DNA of 45,267 nt, from NCBI GenBank assembly GCA_003231975.1, contig QIKW01000265.1, positions 1 to 45,267 on the forward strand, given 5' to 3'. Both the position numbers and the translations under genes were made by a program. Origin of the DNA: Acidimicrobiia bacterium (GTDB lineage Bacteria; Actinomycetota; Acidimicrobiia; Acidimicrobiales; SZUA-35). Positions within the stretch are counted from its first letter, which is position 1. Each line of letters opens with the position of its first letter. Positions 3,616-32,923 of the stretch are shown here, piece by piece. The notes below the pieces were generated by a model that made no database searches, was not told the DNA's origin, and worked only from the letters and a program-made list of their open reading frames with translations.

Positions 3616-4956
3616 CTAACCGTGAGCCGCGGCCGCTGAGGCGCCGTCGCCGCGTTCTGCGGGATCAGCTTCCAGGTTGTGCGAGGTGGGATTGTGCGAA
3701 GACGGTGTCAGCCGAACCGCACCTGCGTAGCGAGCCCTGGCAGCCATCACATCCAGGCCGTACTGATCCGAGCGGTTGTACCCAAGCAGCGCAACCCGGA
3801 AGTTCTCATCGGCGTCCAAGCCGCCACGTGAGCGACACAGGTGCTCGGCCGCGGAAAGTGCCGCATCGTAAATGTTGTGGGGGTCACGCACCCCATCGCC
3901 GTTCCCGTCCTGGCCATATATCTGCCAGCTGCTGGGGATGAACTGCATCGGGCCAACGGCCCGGTCCCACTCGGTGTTGCCGTCCAACGCCCCGCCGTCG
4001 GTGTCCCTGATGGATGCGAACTCTGTGCCATCCAGAACCGGCCCCAGAATCTTCTTGGATGTCTGGCCGTCCGGGCCAACCACACTGCCGCCGAAGGAAC
4101 CGTGCCGGGTCTCGATCAACCCAATCCCGGCTAGCTGACTCCAAGTGACGCGGCAACCCGGGCGGCGTTCCGCAGTTGCCACCTGTGCCGTGAAGTAGGC
4201 ATCCAGAACTACCAGAGGGATGTCGGTGTCTGCCACCGTCTGGGCCGCCAGTTGCTGTTCGAATCTGGGCACCAGAGTATCGATCCGAGAGTTCGCATCT
4301 GCCAACTCGGTCCTTGCCAGTGAAATCCTGCTGTCAGCGGCAGCCACGGCCTTGTCGATCTGAGCCGCGGTCCGTTCGGCATCAGCCAACCCAAGGCGGC
4401 TGGCACCAAGGGCAACCCTGGCCGAGGAGAGCCGATCCGACAACACCTCTTCTGCTGAATCAGCCAGCTCGGGGACCGGGCTGGAGACACCATCGAAGCT
4501 GAACTTCTCGAGGTCAAGCTTTGCGGTACCGAGGAAAGTGCTGACTCCGTAGGCCCCGAGGTTTGAGACTGCCTCGGCCTCGGCCAGCACCGCTGTGTCC
4601 AGGATTAGCCTTCTTTCCGCAACCACAACACGGTGGGCCCAGCGGTCGCTGAGCCTTTCAGCTCTTTCCTGGAATCCTTCGACGCGACGAATCTCGGCAC
4701 CGTCCCGATCCACATAGGCCTGTGTTAGGTCCACAACCAGGCCCCGCACCGGGCGGAGGTCAATCCCAACCTGGTCCATAATGTCTGGCTGAAACAGCTG
4801 GGAGTCTGGAAGTAGTTCCCGAAGGCTCAACTCTGGCAGTTGGTTCGTCTCCGCATCGCCTTGCTGGTCTTCCTGTCCCAGAGCGGGTGCCCCAAATGAA
4901 AGCAGCGGCGCGATGACCGCGACAACAGCAACAACACGGAGAACGCGACCAGTCAC
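3616..4956 (-). CDS. Secreted lytic murein transglycosylase, MltB-like
   Basis: An exported peptidoglycan-cleaving enzyme of 446 residues. A signal peptide covers about residues 1-27 (hydrophobic core VVAVVAVIAPLLSF, cut after a GAPALG-type end). Residues 85-245 are rich in alanine, glutamate and arginine with coiled-coil character. The catalytic domain begins near residue 265: GIGLIETRHG carries the likely catalytic glutamate near residue 280, and DRAVGPMQFIPSSW is the hallmark of the MltB/SLT_2 group. GNGDGVRDPHNIYDAA follows and may bind calcium. The start is GTG with no strong ribosome site. The C-terminal 40 residues are low complexity. It is probably involved in wall remodelling; neighbours give no further hint. 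Confidence 0.88.
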   Translation of the reverse strand: MTGRVLRVVAVVAVIAPLLSFGAPALGQEDQQGDAETNQLPELSLRELLPDSQLFQPDIMDQVGIDLRPVRGLVVDLTQAYVDRDGAEIRRVEGFQERAERLSDRWAHRVVVAERRLILDTAVLAEAEAVSNLGAYGVSTFLGTAKLDLEKFSFDGVSSPVPELADSAEEVLSDRLSSARVALGASRLGLADAERTAAQIDKAVAAADSRISLARTELADANSRIDTLVPRFEQQLAAQTVADTDIPLVVLDAYFTAQVATAERRPGCRVTWSQLAGIGLIETRHGSFGGSVVGPDGQTSKKILGPVLDGTEFASIRDTDGGALDGNTEWDRAVGPMQFIPSSWQIYGQDGNGDGVRDPHNIYDAALSAAEHLCRSRGGLDADENFRVALLGYNRSDQYGLDVMAARARYAGAVRLTPSSHNPTSHNLEADPAERGDGASAAAAHG

Positions 4957-5050: not shown

Positions 5051-5540
5051 GGACTATTGCATTGGGGTCTGCTCCCGCAGACCCGGCTTCGCCCATCCGG
5101 GTCAATAGCTCACGGCGTGCCGACGCCGTCGGCAACCACGCGCTATTGCATTGGGGTCTGCTCCCGCAGACCCGGCTTCGCCCATCCAACTAAACACCCC
5201 ACGGCGTGCCGACGCCGTCGGCAACGCGCAACACGAAAATAGGGCGTGCCGACGCCGTCGGCAACGCGCAACGGATCTGGCCATCGAACTTGGCCCCGAC
5301 AGGTCAACTGGCATGGATTAGGTGCGTTTTCGCCACTAATCCATGCCAGTTGCAAACCGGCCTCCCCGGCAAGTCACATTGGGGTCTGCTCCCGCAGACC
5401 CGGCTTCGCCCATCCAACTAAACACCCCACGGCGTGCCGACGCCGTCGGCAACGCGCAACGCCTTGGGGTCTGCTCCCGCAGACCCGCCTCCGGCCACCC
5501 CGGGCAACACCTCCCCGCTGGTCGCCGACGGCGACCACGC
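5051..5540. repeat. Extragenic palindromic repeat cluster 1 (units A and B)
   Basis: This gene-free 670-base gap holds alternating palindromic units. Unit A is a perfect hairpin, GGGTCTGC-TCCC-GCAGACCC, followed by CGGCTTCGCCCATCC. Copies start near 5061, 5150 and 5378, and a variant with a different tail lies near 5464. Unit B is built around GCCGACGCCGTCGGC, with copies near 5111, 5200, 5243 and 5429. A B variant at 5519-5537 is a perfect palindrome, TGGTCGCCG-A-CGGCGACCA. A and B alternate as A-B pairs, like REP/BIME elements in other bacteria. All frames across it give only repeat-derived peptides, so I annotate no gene here. Confidence 0.85.
5305..5352. repeat. Long hairpin element C, copy 1
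   Basis: A perfect 17-bp inverted repeat: CAACTGGCATGGATTAG (5305-5321) and its complement (5336-5352), around the 14-base loop GTGCGTTTTCGCCA. It sits inside repeat cluster 1, downstream of nrdR. The same element recurs near 7331 and 32878 with changes in the arms and an identical loop. Confidence 0.85.
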
Positions 5541-5626
5541 GCAAATGGGGCGACTCAAGGTTTGGAGGCCTGTACCGAGTCGGGGCCTCCAGAATCCAAG
5601 GTGCGAGGGCCTTGGCCGCGGTGGTC

Positions 5627-6139
5627 TTAGTGCGGCGTTAGCGAATCTGACTGGGGCTCGGAGGCACCGAACGCCGGGTGCTCTCGTTTGATCAGGGTGA
5701 GCTCCCTTTCGAAGTCAGCAACATCAACGAACCCCTTGTAGACACTGGCGAAGCGCAGTGCCGCAACCTCGTCTAACGCCCGGAGCTGGTCTAACACGGC
5801 AATGCCGACCCACTCTGAGCTGACCTCTGGACCTTCGATCCTGGCCTGGTCCTCAACAGAATCCGCAATCAGCTGAAGTACCGCCGATTCCAGCGGGCGA
5901 CCCTTGGCGGCCAACGTGAGACCACGGACGATCTTGGCCCGATCAAAAGGAGTCTTGTCTCCGGTGCGCTTAACGACTGTCAAGGTGACAGTCTCGAATC
6001 GCTCAAAGGTTGTGAAACGATTCTTGCAGCGGGTGCATGCACGTCTGCGGCGAATCGCGCTGCCAGCCTCGGCACTACGAGAATCAACCACTCGAGTTTC
6101 GTCGTTGCCGCAAGCCGTACAGCGCATTGGCACAACCAT
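5627..6139 (-). CDS. nrdR: Transcriptional repressor NrdR
   Basis: NrdR is the nucleotide-sensing repressor of ribonucleotide reductase genes; its ATP-cone domain reads dATP/ATP levels. The 170-residue protein has the expected zinc ribbon (MRCTACGNDETRVVDSR, then RACTRCKNRF, four cysteines) and the ATP cone with VVKRTGDKTPFDRAKI near residue 57. Length is slightly above the usual 150 because of a short C-terminal tail. The start may be ATG at 6139 or the fourth codon later at 6127, which gives the family-standard beginning MRC. It lies 66 bases downstream of the LysM gene on the same strand and is probably co-transcribed. Its predicted target, the pair of boxes before nrdJ, is in this window. 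Confidence 0.97.
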   Translation of the reverse strand: MVVPMRCTACGNDETRVVDSRSAEAGSAIRRRRACTRCKNRFTTFERFETVTLTVVKRTGDKTPFDRAKIVRGLTLAAKGRPLESAVLQLIADSVEDQARIEGPEVSSEWVGIAVLDQLRALDEVAALRFASVYKGFVDVADFERELTLIKREHPAFGASEPQSDSLTPH

Positions 6140-6205
6140 AACTGACCTATGAACGATGAGCGGGCACGATTCCGGCAGATCCGGACTTTCAAGTGGGATA
6201 TCGTT

Positions 6206-6670
6206 CTAGCCGAGCGAAGCCGGGATGCGAACGACTTGGCCTTCGGCCAGCGCACTGCCTCCGTTGGCAGCCGTAAGCAGCCGAACCACCTCAGTGGTCT
6301 CTTGGCCTGGCGCCGCAGCCAGGGCAATGCCCCACCACGTGTCGCCGGCTTTGGCAACCAGCAGCCGGTCTTGGCTGCTGGCGGCTGACTCTGCCGCTGG
6401 CTGCGCATTCGCCGCCGATTCAGCTTGGAGCCCAACCCAAGTGTCGGCCGTTGGGGCGCCCTGCACCAACCGAAGAGAAATCACCACAACCGCCAGCAGA
6501 ACTAGGCCGAGAGCAATAAGAAGCCGGGGATCGCCAACAGCGCTTCTGGCAATTGTTGACGACGACCGAGCTGACTGCCCACCAACTACCAGGCGTAGCC
6601 GGGGTGGATGCGAGGGAGCTGGGCAAGGAGTGCCGTTTTGGAAAGGGGCGGGTTGAAAGAGTGCGACCAT
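6206..6670 (-). CDS. Membrane-anchored LysM protein, SOS cell-division regulator (DivS/ChiZ/YneA-like)
   Basis: This 154-residue protein has one transmembrane helix (about residues 50-68, LLIALGLVLLAVVVISLRL). A C-terminal LysM-like domain (about 103-153) starts with VAKAGDTWWGIALA and ends with EGQVVRIP. Position between nrdR and a divergent lexA is exactly that of Rv2719c/ChiZ in M. tuberculosis and parallels DivS of Corynebacterium and YneA of Bacillus, which block division during DNA damage. The start is ATG with AGGAAG about nine bases upstream. Three LexA boxes at 6816-6885, one of them inside the promoter spacer, predict strong SOS control. Function is inferred from position, architecture and operators; sequence identity to the named proteins is not claimed. 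Confidence 0.82.
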   Translation of the reverse strand: MVALFQPAPFQNGTPCPAPSHPPRLRLVVGGQSARSSSTIARSAVGDPRLLIALGLVLLAVVVISLRLVQGAPTADTWVGLQAESAANAQPAAESAASSQDRLLVAKAGDTWWGIALAAAPGQETTEVVRLLTAANGGSALAEGQVVRIPASLG

Positions 6671-6815
6671 GATTACATCTTCCTGAGGGGGTGTGACACT
6701 GTCTGGAATCTGGCTGTTCTAAAGCTGGCTGTTCTGGGCGAGGTGGCCGGAGGGGACGACGGCGATTCGATCGTCCACCCCGGCCACGTCGAGCTGCTGC
6801 CCCCAGCGCTCCTCC

Positions 6816-6885
6816 CGAACGGGTGTTCTGAACAGTTAACACGAACGCTCGTTCGTTGACAACCCCCAATCCGAACAATTGTTCT
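6816..6885 (-). promoter_or_regulatory. SOS promoter of the LysM gene with three LexA boxes
   Basis: Three LexA operators of the Gram-positive form CGAAC-N4-GTTCG lie within 70 bp: CGAACGGGTGTTCT (6816-6829), the perfect CGAACGCTCGTTCG (6842-6855) and CGAACAATTGTTCT (6872-6885). On the minus strand a -35 TTGTCA (6857-6862) and a -10 TTAACT (6834-6839) are 17 bp apart, and the perfect box fills the spacer. The first box would cover the transcription start and the third lies upstream of -35. LexA bound here should exclude RNA polymerase. Confidence 0.85.
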
Positions 6886-6887
6886 GT

Positions 6888-7300
6888 TTTATTGGGACCT
6901 GCTACCGCAGGTCCGGCTTCGCCCATCCGCGTCATCCGCACACTGCGTGCCGACGCCGTCGGCAACGCGTGACTGCCAGCCGCTACCGCAGGTCCGGCTT
7001 CGCCCATCCGCGTCATCCGCACGCTGCGTGCCGGCACGCTGCGTGCCGACGCCGACGGCAACGCGTGACACGACCACATTGGGACCTGCTTCCGCAGGTC
7101 CGCCTCCGGCCACCCCGGTCAACACCCTCACTGCGTGCCGACGCCGTCGGCAACACAGAACAGCCACGAGGCGAGTTCTGAGCGAAGCGAAAAACTTGCG
7201 AAGAGACGAGGCCTCCAAGGCCGAGAAACGGCGACCGCTTCCGCAGGTCCGGCTTCGCCCATCTGGGTCGACACCTCACCGCTCGTCGCCGACGGCAACG
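6888..7300. repeat. Extragenic palindromic repeat cluster 2 (units A' and B)
   Basis: Four copies of a unit related to unit A lie here with the stem changed to GGACCTGC-NNCC-GCAGGTCC, followed by GGCTTCGCCCATCC or the GCCTCCGGCCACCC variant. Copies start near 6894, 6976, 7080 and 7230; the second and fourth have lost the left side of the stem. Each is followed by a B-type palindrome (TGCCGACGCCGTCGGCAAC or variants). This is the same A-B alternation as at 5.1-5.5 kb, but with compensatory stem changes. The rest of the 6671-7500 gap is operators and element C; no gene is seen. Confidence 0.82.
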
Positions 7301-7330
7301 CGGAACTGAGCCAGAATCTCCCAAGAAGGG

Positions 7331-7378
7331 GAACTGGAATGGATTAAGTGCGTTTTCGCCACTATTCCATGCCAGTTC
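7331..7378. repeat. Long hairpin element C, copy 2 (degenerate)
   Basis: GAACTGGAATGGATTA and its near complement TATTCCATGCCAGTTC surround the same GTGCGTTTTCGCCA loop as the other copies. Two arm positions no longer pair. A short CCC-AAGAA-GGGG stem precedes it, as at copy 3. It ends 54 bases before the LexA box of lexA. Confidence 0.8.
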
Positions 7379-7500: not shown

Positions 7501-8142
7501 GTGAAGAAGCACAAGCTCACCGAGCGACAACTATCAATTCTTGAGTTCATTTCAGCTCAAATGCGAGACATCGGCTACCCGCCGTCGGTTCGCGAGATTG
7601 CGGCTCACGTCGGTCTCACTTCTCCCTCAACGGTTCACTCTCACCTGGCAACCCTCCAACGAGAGGGCTACTTGCGGCGAGATCCCACAAAGCCTCGGGC
7701 CATAGAGGTCCGTTGGGACTCCAATTCCGGTGCTACCGACGTTGAGCGCAGGCCCGTTCGCCACGTGCCTCTAGTCGGATCGGTGGCTGCGGGCACCGAT
7801 GTATTGGCGGCCGAGCACATCGAAGAGACCTACCCCGTCCCTGCAGATCTAACCGGCGACGGCGACCTGTTCATGCTGAGGGTGCGCGGCGACTCAATGA
7901 TCGATGCAGGCATTCTCGACCGAGACTTCGTGATCGTCCAGGTGCAACCGACGGCCAAGAACGGCGACATCGTTGTTGCCGGTATTCCGGGCGAAGAGGC
8001 AACGGTCAAGACCTACAGCACCGACGACAAGAGCGGCCAGATCGTGCTGCTCCCCGCCAACTTTGCGCTGAAACCAATGCGTTATGACCCCGACGAAGTG
8101 CAAATCTTCGGCAAAGTTGTAACGATCATGCGCCGCCTCTGA
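7501..8142 (+). CDS. lexA: SOS repressor LexA
   Basis: LexA represses DNA-damage genes and cleaves itself when RecA filaments form. The 213-residue protein has the N-terminal winged helix (LTERQLSILEFI, then PPSVREIAAHVGLTSPSTVH, residues 6-50). The cleavage site is Ala-Gly within SVAAGTDVL near residue 98. The S24 peptidase domain carries the nucleophile in RVRGDSMIDAG (serine near 130) and the general-base lysine in ATVKTY near 170. The start is GTG with a near-perfect AAAGGAGG five bases upstream. It is divergent from the LysM gene across an 830-base gap full of repeats, and has its own LexA box at 7432-7445. Confidence 0.98.
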   Translation: MKKHKLTERQLSILEFISAQMRDIGYPPSVREIAAHVGLTSPSTVHSHLATLQREGYLRRDPTKPRAIEVRWDSNSGATDVERRPVRHVPLVGSVAAGTDVLAAEHIEETYPVPADLTGDGDLFMLRVRGDSMIDAGILDRDFVIVQVQPTAKNGDIVVAGIPGEEATVKTYSTDDKSGQIVLLPANFALKPMRYDPDEVQIFGKVVTIMRRL

Positions 8143-29454: not shown

Positions 29455-29521
29455 ATGCGTTGCCGACGGCGTCGGGAACCACTGTGGCCGACCTGTCACG
29501 CGTGGTCGCCGTCGGCGACCA
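29455..29521. repeat. Isolated B-type palindromic repeats
   Basis: Near 29459-29480 lies an inverted copy of unit B (TTGCCGACGGCGTCGGGAAC). At 29503-29521 lies the perfect palindrome TGGTCGCCG-T-CGGCGACCA, the same as the variant at 5519-5537 except for the centre base. These link this gap to the clusters 22-24 kb away. Confidence 0.75.
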
Positions 29522-29587
29522 GCGAGAGCCCAATTACCCGGATAGGCCAGAGGCCGTGAGGCAACAGCCGAACCAAATAGTAGAGCG

Positions 29588-32877: not shown

Positions 32878-32923
32878 AACTGGAATGGATTAGGTGCGTT
32901 TTCGCCACTAATCCATTCCAGTT
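32878..32923. repeat. Long hairpin element C, copy 3
   Basis: A perfect 16-bp inverted repeat, AACTGGAATGGATTAG and its complement, around the GTGCGTTTTCGCCA loop. A CCCC-AAAAA-GGGG mini-stem (32865-32877) precedes it. It lies between the LLM oxidoreductase stop and the recA promoter, 26 bases from the LexA box. Compared with copy 1, both arms changed together (GGAATGG/CCATTCC against GGCATGG/CCATGCC). Confidence 0.88.

Follow-up and report, generated by a model that had tools for sequence, protein, structure and literature searches.

Two marks usually define REP-like repeats, a GTAG/CGTC tag and a RAYT. Integron attC sites are recognized by their folded single-strand shape, with poor conservation of sequence. 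The features of REPs that are used here for comparison were taken from previous descriptions (PMC3733652, PMC2817692, PMC6006769). A REP has 20-40 bp and one hairpin, its cognate RAYT is flanked by two elements, BIMEs are clusters in which the elements have an alternating (inverted) order, and REPINs are made of two inverted REPs. The MITEs (RUP, NEMIS, ERIC and similar) are non-coding, foldable and gene-adjacent elements of 70-300 bp.

The window analyzed in this work is a stretch of 45,267 nucleotides from the draft genome of an Acidimicrobiia bacterium (contig QIKW01000265.1, positions 1 to 45,267). It contains two clusters of palindromic repeats, at 5060-5541 and 6890-7302, that flank nrdR and a small ORF, ahead of lexA. 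We call them members of a new REP-like family, and no known family accounts for it. In our reading, to which we assign a probability of roughly 0.6, these are short, non-coding, non-autonomous DNA elements with a fold that is read as DNA, which spread rarely and grow locally into arrays.

Results and Discussion

An earlier note on this DNA had described a hairpin A and a palindrome B that alternate in clusters beside nrdR and the small ORF. Both are present at these places, but they are not separate elements: they are parts of one unit of about 91 bp with three hairpins (H1, H2, and H3), which is repeated head to tail. The genes around the clusters are an SLT-domain transglycosylase (3616-4956, minus strand, PF13406), nrdR (5627-6139, minus strand, PF22811 and PF03477), the small protein that had been labeled LysM (6206-6670, minus strand), which has no Pfam match and lies between nrdR and lexA also in relatives, and lexA (7501-8142, plus strand, PF01726 and PF00717).

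All units of the two clusters are on the plus strand, and their bit scores are those of the covariance model R1. In cluster 1, unit 1 (5060-5140, 92.7 bits) has H1 as GGGTCTGC-TCCC-GCAGACCC, H2 as CGGCTTCGCC, and H3 as TGCCGAC-GCC-GTCGGCA. It is followed by unit 2 (5149-5228, 98.6 bits), a partial unit found by pattern and R1 searches that consists of H3 only (5244-5267), unit 3 (5377-5456, 98.6 bits), which is identical to unit 2, and unit 4 (5462-5541, 82.6 bits). The H1 stems GGGTCTGC/GCAGACCC of this cluster are found at 5065-5084, 5154-5173, 5382-5401, and 5467-5486. In cluster 2, the H1 stem is GGACCTGC/GCAGGTCC in the two intact units, with both arms different from cluster 1: unit 5 (6890-6969, 98.0 bits, GGACCTGC-TACC-GCAGGTCC) and unit 7 (7077-7157, 86.0 bits, GGACCTGC-TTCC-GCAGGTCC). 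The two other units have no fully matching 5' arm of H1. Unit 6 (6971-7065, 44.7 bits) is degenerate, having lost this arm and partly duplicated the H3 region, and in unit 8 (7226-7302, 48.7 bits) the 5' part is the preceding third repeat module (GAGTTYTGAGCGAAGCGAAAAASTTGCGAAGAGACGAGG...GGCCGAG, 7170-7225, plus strand), which replaces the 5' end of a unit and runs into unit 8. Palindrome B, GTGCCGACGCCGTCGGCAAC, occurs at seven sites in the clusters with 0-1 mismatch, against a chance expectation of 0.02 at up to 3 mismatches. The change on both sides of the H1 stem is as it had been described, but the sequence downstream was not kept throughout: in units 4 and 7 the downstream GGCTTCGCC is replaced by GCCTCCGGC, with both sides altered, and unit 4 also carries H3 as GGTCGCC-GAC-GGCGACC, again with both arms altered. 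A solitary unit lies elsewhere in the window on the minus strand (29499-29579, 49.6 bits).

Other repeats share this neighborhood. A second palindrome (TGGMATGGATTARGTGCGTTTTCGCCACTA...), which in the repeat listing reads AACTGGCATGGATTAGGTGCG-TTTT-CGCCACTAATCCATGCCAGTT at 5305-5352 and has a second copy, listed as the TGGMATGGATTA palindrome, at 7332-7377 and a further one at 32878-32923, forms a very stable hairpin (z -9.6). In the six genomes searched it has 71 copies in the own genome and none in five relatives. The third repeat module (GAGTTTTGAGCGAAGCGAAAAAGTTGCGAAGAGACGAGG at 7170-7225) has 27 copies, also in the own genome only among six, and it often comes after an array, where it stands in for the 5' end of the following three-hairpin unit. 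At 5561-5600 there may be a fourth palindromic repeat (TTTGGAGGCCTGTACC...GGGGCCTCCAGAA), and similar sequence follows arrays in other stretches.

The architecture of the unit was obtained from an alignment of 20 copies and can be written as RCTNTNA-YATTG-[H1]-[H2]-linker-[H3]-ACGCR-TRAC. H1 has a stem of 8 bp and a loop TNNC, H2 is found as GGCTTCGCC, GCCTCCGGC, GCCTTCGGGC, or GGGCTTCGCCC, and H3 has two main forms, those of units 1 and 4. The ends, placed from the base composition around first, inner, and last units, are RCTNTNA (5') and TRAC (3'), and are identical for first and inner units, while the sequence outside the 5' end shows little preference. Given that 7 + 80 + 4 = 91 nt is about the tandem spacing of 89-94 nt, the units abut without spacers. 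Among neighboring pairs, 60 of 63 are head to tail and 3 opposite. No terminal inverted repeats were seen, RCTNTNA and TRAC not being inverted relative to each other.

Several other kinds of repeat can be set aside on these grounds. The common spacings of 89, 92, and 94 are not multiples of three (90 is the exception), which rules out a protein-coding repeat; a CRISPR array is ruled out by units that abut without spacers, and an integron cassette array by abutting units without cassettes. Searches for tRNA and tmRNA found none.

Each of three own units, folded as single-stranded DNA, was more stable than every one of 200 shuffles (z -3.3 to -4.9), and with RNA folding parameters the picture is the same. 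Units of relatives are less extreme, one being no better than shuffles, and some copies of the genus g7 have a poor fold for the whole unit (z -0.4). Independently of any fitting to the structure, about a dozen distinct perfect H1 arms can be read in the raw sequences, each with its complement: GGTCTGC, GACCTGC, GGTCCGC, GCTCCGC, GGACTGC, GGTTCGC, GGAGCGC, GGTTTGC, GCTCTGC, GCTCGGC, GATCTGC, and GATGTGC.

The covariation seen in the window became stronger, and was not lost, when more copies were aligned (148 own and 43 from other genera). Across the 148 distinct own copies, 93% of the cells of the 21 stem positions are paired, and 14 of the 21 pairs are altered on both sides, in 397 cells. This was matched by none of 500 shuffles, for which the mean is 152 cells, and slid partners give at most 39 cells; the alignments were fitted to the structure, which favors it, and the cells count copies, not events. 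The 43 copies from other genera show 14 pairs and 125 cells altered on both sides. In this alignment of relatives, neither the further standard pair types nor the pairs altered on both sides are clearly above shuffles.

Seven pairs or triples of loci have homologous flanks in different species (71-90% identical), and at four of these seven sets (sets 1, 3, 6, and 7) H1 differs on both sides: GGATCGC/GCAATCC versus GGAGCGC/GCACTCC, GGTTTGC/GCAAACC versus GGTTCGC/GCGAACC, GGCTCTGC/GCAGAGC versus GGGTCTGC/GCAGACC, and GGACTGC/GCAGTCC versus GGCTCGGC/GCCGAGC, where the preceding coding region is 90% identical as far as its stop codon. These differences could also have come from gene conversion by another copy or from separate insertions at one site. 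The fold is kept across three genera, orthologous sites included, while the letters of the stems turn over. Given that relatives in other genera fold alike although most of their letters differ, shape, probably as DNA, is what this family keeps. The persistence of the fold when the nearest copy located elsewhere is typically only about 89% identical argues against a purely neutral repeat.

Selection for structure in RNA or DNA, as proposed from the window, is likely, but template switching in DNA can also alter both arms together, and it has been argued for RNA hairpins that it can create and maintain them (PMC8794818). This is the main rival explanation for the covariation: the compensatory changes would be mutational and not selected, with template switching copying one arm to the other (quasipalindrome correction) and so keeping old palindromes perfect. 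The changes of adjacent blocks within arms (GT to AC, from GGGTCTGC to GGACCTGC) and the scarcity of one-sided intermediates are what such a process would give, and it also predicts that G-T should not outnumber A-C. By contrast, in one subfamily (15 copies and variants) a symmetric 2x2 mismatch, GGTCGGC/GCCTCCC, stays uncorrected in many copies, and template switching alone does not enforce the order of the hairpins, the loop T..C, the linker, and the ends that are kept across genera. We find it rather doubtful as the whole explanation, but some of the covariation could be due to it, with no selection involved.

If selection acted on an RNA from one strand, that strand should accept G-U far more readily than A-C. 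On the element strand, G-T and A-C mismatches number 29 and 30 in own copies and 11 and 14 in relatives, in total 40 versus 44, a test that counts copies, not events, and in which one pair of a single subfamily accounts for 17 of the G-T cells. G-T is not above A-C, and therefore neither strand is clearly favored. The position of the arrays points in the same direction: with a rough gene finder, the gaps that hold own arrays are convergent in 14 cases, tandem in 32, and divergent in 10, and orientation relative to genes is near random, with no clear bias. The balance of mismatches and this orientation argue for conservation as DNA rather than RNA, so that of the two levels left open by the earlier note the evidence favors DNA.

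A structured RNA that is selected genome-wide for its fold, such as a 3'-UTR stabilizer, a processing site, or a small RNA, is in our view unlikely. Such an element would agree with the strong covariation and with the 39 of 68 own arrays that have the 3' end of a same-strand gene ahead of them (rough gene finder), many of which begin exactly at its stop codon; for REPs elsewhere in bacteria, a role as RNA has also been suggested (PMC3733652). However, in the remaining 29 of 68 a gene 5' end lies upstream, which places the element antisense to that gene or in its promoter region, and G-U is no more frequent than A-C on either strand. Moreover, Rfam covariance models gave no match at the gathering score and, at E up to 1, matches that are no better than chance, and no run of T was seen by eye after the hairpins in the window.

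The stop codon of a gene that precedes an array is often formed by the 5' end of the unit or lies directly next to it, and ...CTC-TGA|TATTGGG recurs at several unrelated genes. In this the three-hairpin unit is like the GTAG REPs, which have been reported to supply the stop codon of the gene before them (PMC3733652). Another motif, TGTCACA(C/G)CCC, is found upstream of genes at 6690-6705 of the window and in the upstream flanks of seven other stretches (L031, L045, L165, L181, L184, L140, and L142). It lies beside several arrays and also occurs without an array, and may be a promoter or a regulator site.

The units are not confined to the window. Model R1 detects at least 150 full-length copies in the own draft (3.71 Mb, 275 contigs), grouped into more than 60 clusters, and the 61 stretches examined in detail hold 163 R1 matches, some antisense shadows included. 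About 19 contigs have a unit within 200 nt of their left end, among the matches listed, where about 2 would be expected from 150. This excess indicates that the assembly breaks at the three-hairpin family and that the true copy number is higher.

Outside this genome, R1 found weaker full-length matches in four genomes of one genus (G007, G016, G022, and G029) and in one of another genus (G020), all of the same taxonomic family. The broader model R2 was built with copies from relatives, of which R1 contained none, and it found 10-19 copies each in G007, G016, G022, and G020, and one in G029. R2 found none in the other 33 genomes of the family, same-genus G001 included, and G026, from the genus of the g7 bearers, has at most one weak match. 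No further bearers appeared among 298 genomes sampled from the order and 395 from the class, searched with stricter filters, and plasmid, phage, and IMG/VR collections gave no match to the unit. On these searches, the distribution is narrow and patchy.

The gene block of SLT, nrdR, ORF, and lexA is conserved in relatives. Between nrdR and SLT, eight relatives that share this gene order have 51-234 bp and the own genome has 673 bp; between the ORF and lexA the own gap is 830 bp, and relatives where both starts are visible have 202-606 bp, with one outlier of 2647. Since the gaps that hold arrays are longer here, the arrays are, on this comparison of sequences, most likely additions in this lineage, and units may have been transposed.

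The best match of a unit in any other stretch is always below 95% identical (median 88.8%). Inside its own stretch the median rises to 95%, and ten units have an exact duplicate there. Spread between places therefore looks old and growth within arrays recent. The lack of near-identical copies at different places gives no sign of recent movement, with the proviso that recent identical copies would break the assembly, collapsing or falling at contig ends.

Two further observations concern the surroundings of arrays. One array is at a rearrangement breakpoint between two species (L150 versus L155), with one flank collinear and the other inverted. In several genomes (L060, L158, L144, L168, and L190) arrays adjoin one paralogous gene family, whose members are probably just abundant paralogues.

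A mobilizing enzyme was sought by a family search in 61 genomes, a protein search in five, and model searches of flanks. As first noticed for the window, there is no RAYT, and none was found in the whole assembly: Y1_Tnp is absent from the own genome (G000) in family and protein searches of what is a fragmented draft, so that its absence is not final. It is also absent from the element-bearing G020, while it is present in the element-free G001, G008, G011, G019, and others. Relatives carry RAYT-like Y1_Tnp genes of about 300-430 aa (L085-L088, L090, L095, and L096), some of which adjoin other repeats (...ACCTGACCCC; TTGTTGAGATTGAGACGCGACCCCAAGG). These searches gave no link that would make a RAYT/Y1 transposase the partner of the unit. 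A gene that recurs next to arrays was likewise considered as mobilizer and rejected, with no mobility gene among the ORFs of 61 own stretches and 27 of relatives; array-adjacent ORFs shared between stretches are paralogues, a few common neighbors, or ORFs that are the repeats themselves.

We regard it as improbable that the units are genuine REPs with a RAYT that escaped detection because the draft is fragmented at the repeats. The copies at contig ends are in line with it, as is the occurrence of Y1_Tnp genes, which the four g7 genomes with the element have and their congener G026 lacks. Yet Y1_Tnp does not follow the element in G000, G020, and the element-free genomes named above, and the model search found no significant three-hairpin copy in the flanks of the RAYT-like genes of relatives. 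The tag is missing as well: near the 5' end of the unit, GTAG/GTGG is present in only 14 of 139 units and CGTC in 3 of 139, and in most units the position of the tag is held by YATTG. The mobilizer is probably not a RAYT.

The resemblance to REP/BIME that had been remarked on holds in part. The family is high-copy, extragenic, palindromic, and clustered, with complementary changes in the stems, and its members differ between species. However, the unit is a conserved one of about 91 bp with three hairpins and conserved ends rather than one hairpin, the clusters run head to tail and not in BIME alternation, and the RAYTs of relatives are not flanked by it. The family is not filed under REP/BIME, since it was tested for the tag, the form of the unit, the order in clusters, and the link to a RAYT, and differs in each. 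REPINs are similar in being compound, dispersed, and about 90 bp long with more than one hairpin, but here H1 and H3 are unrelated hairpins in a fixed order. The unit resembles MITEs in length, foldability, and position next to genes, and differs in its ends. With attC sites it shares a similar length and otherwise only a possible mode of recognition, whereas no gene cassettes lie between the units and these are dispersed at more than 60 places. No described family was recognized in Rfam, nor was a description of one in this group found in the literature, coverage of which is incomplete.

For the REP-like family that we favor, the unit would form its three hairpins when single-stranded, and the fold would be read at the level of DNA, as a single-stranded or cruciform hairpin recognized by its shape. 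The reader may be a nuclease or transposase acting in trans, or a DNA-binding protein. Units would spread rarely between intergenic sites, and arrays would then grow and be homogenized locally through duplication or recombination. More tentative is a specific form of this proposal, in which a trans-acting factor other than a RAYT reads the three-hairpin single strand by shape, so that compensation renews the stem letters but leaves the shape in place, at shared chromosomal sites in different species and also between genera.

If true, REP-like behavior without the tag or a RAYT, in units of several hairpins that form head-to-tail arrays, would mean that other enzymes are behind this filling of intergenic space. 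With its many copies, orthologous sites, and diverged relatives, the family is a good natural test of selection versus template switching in DNA palindromes.
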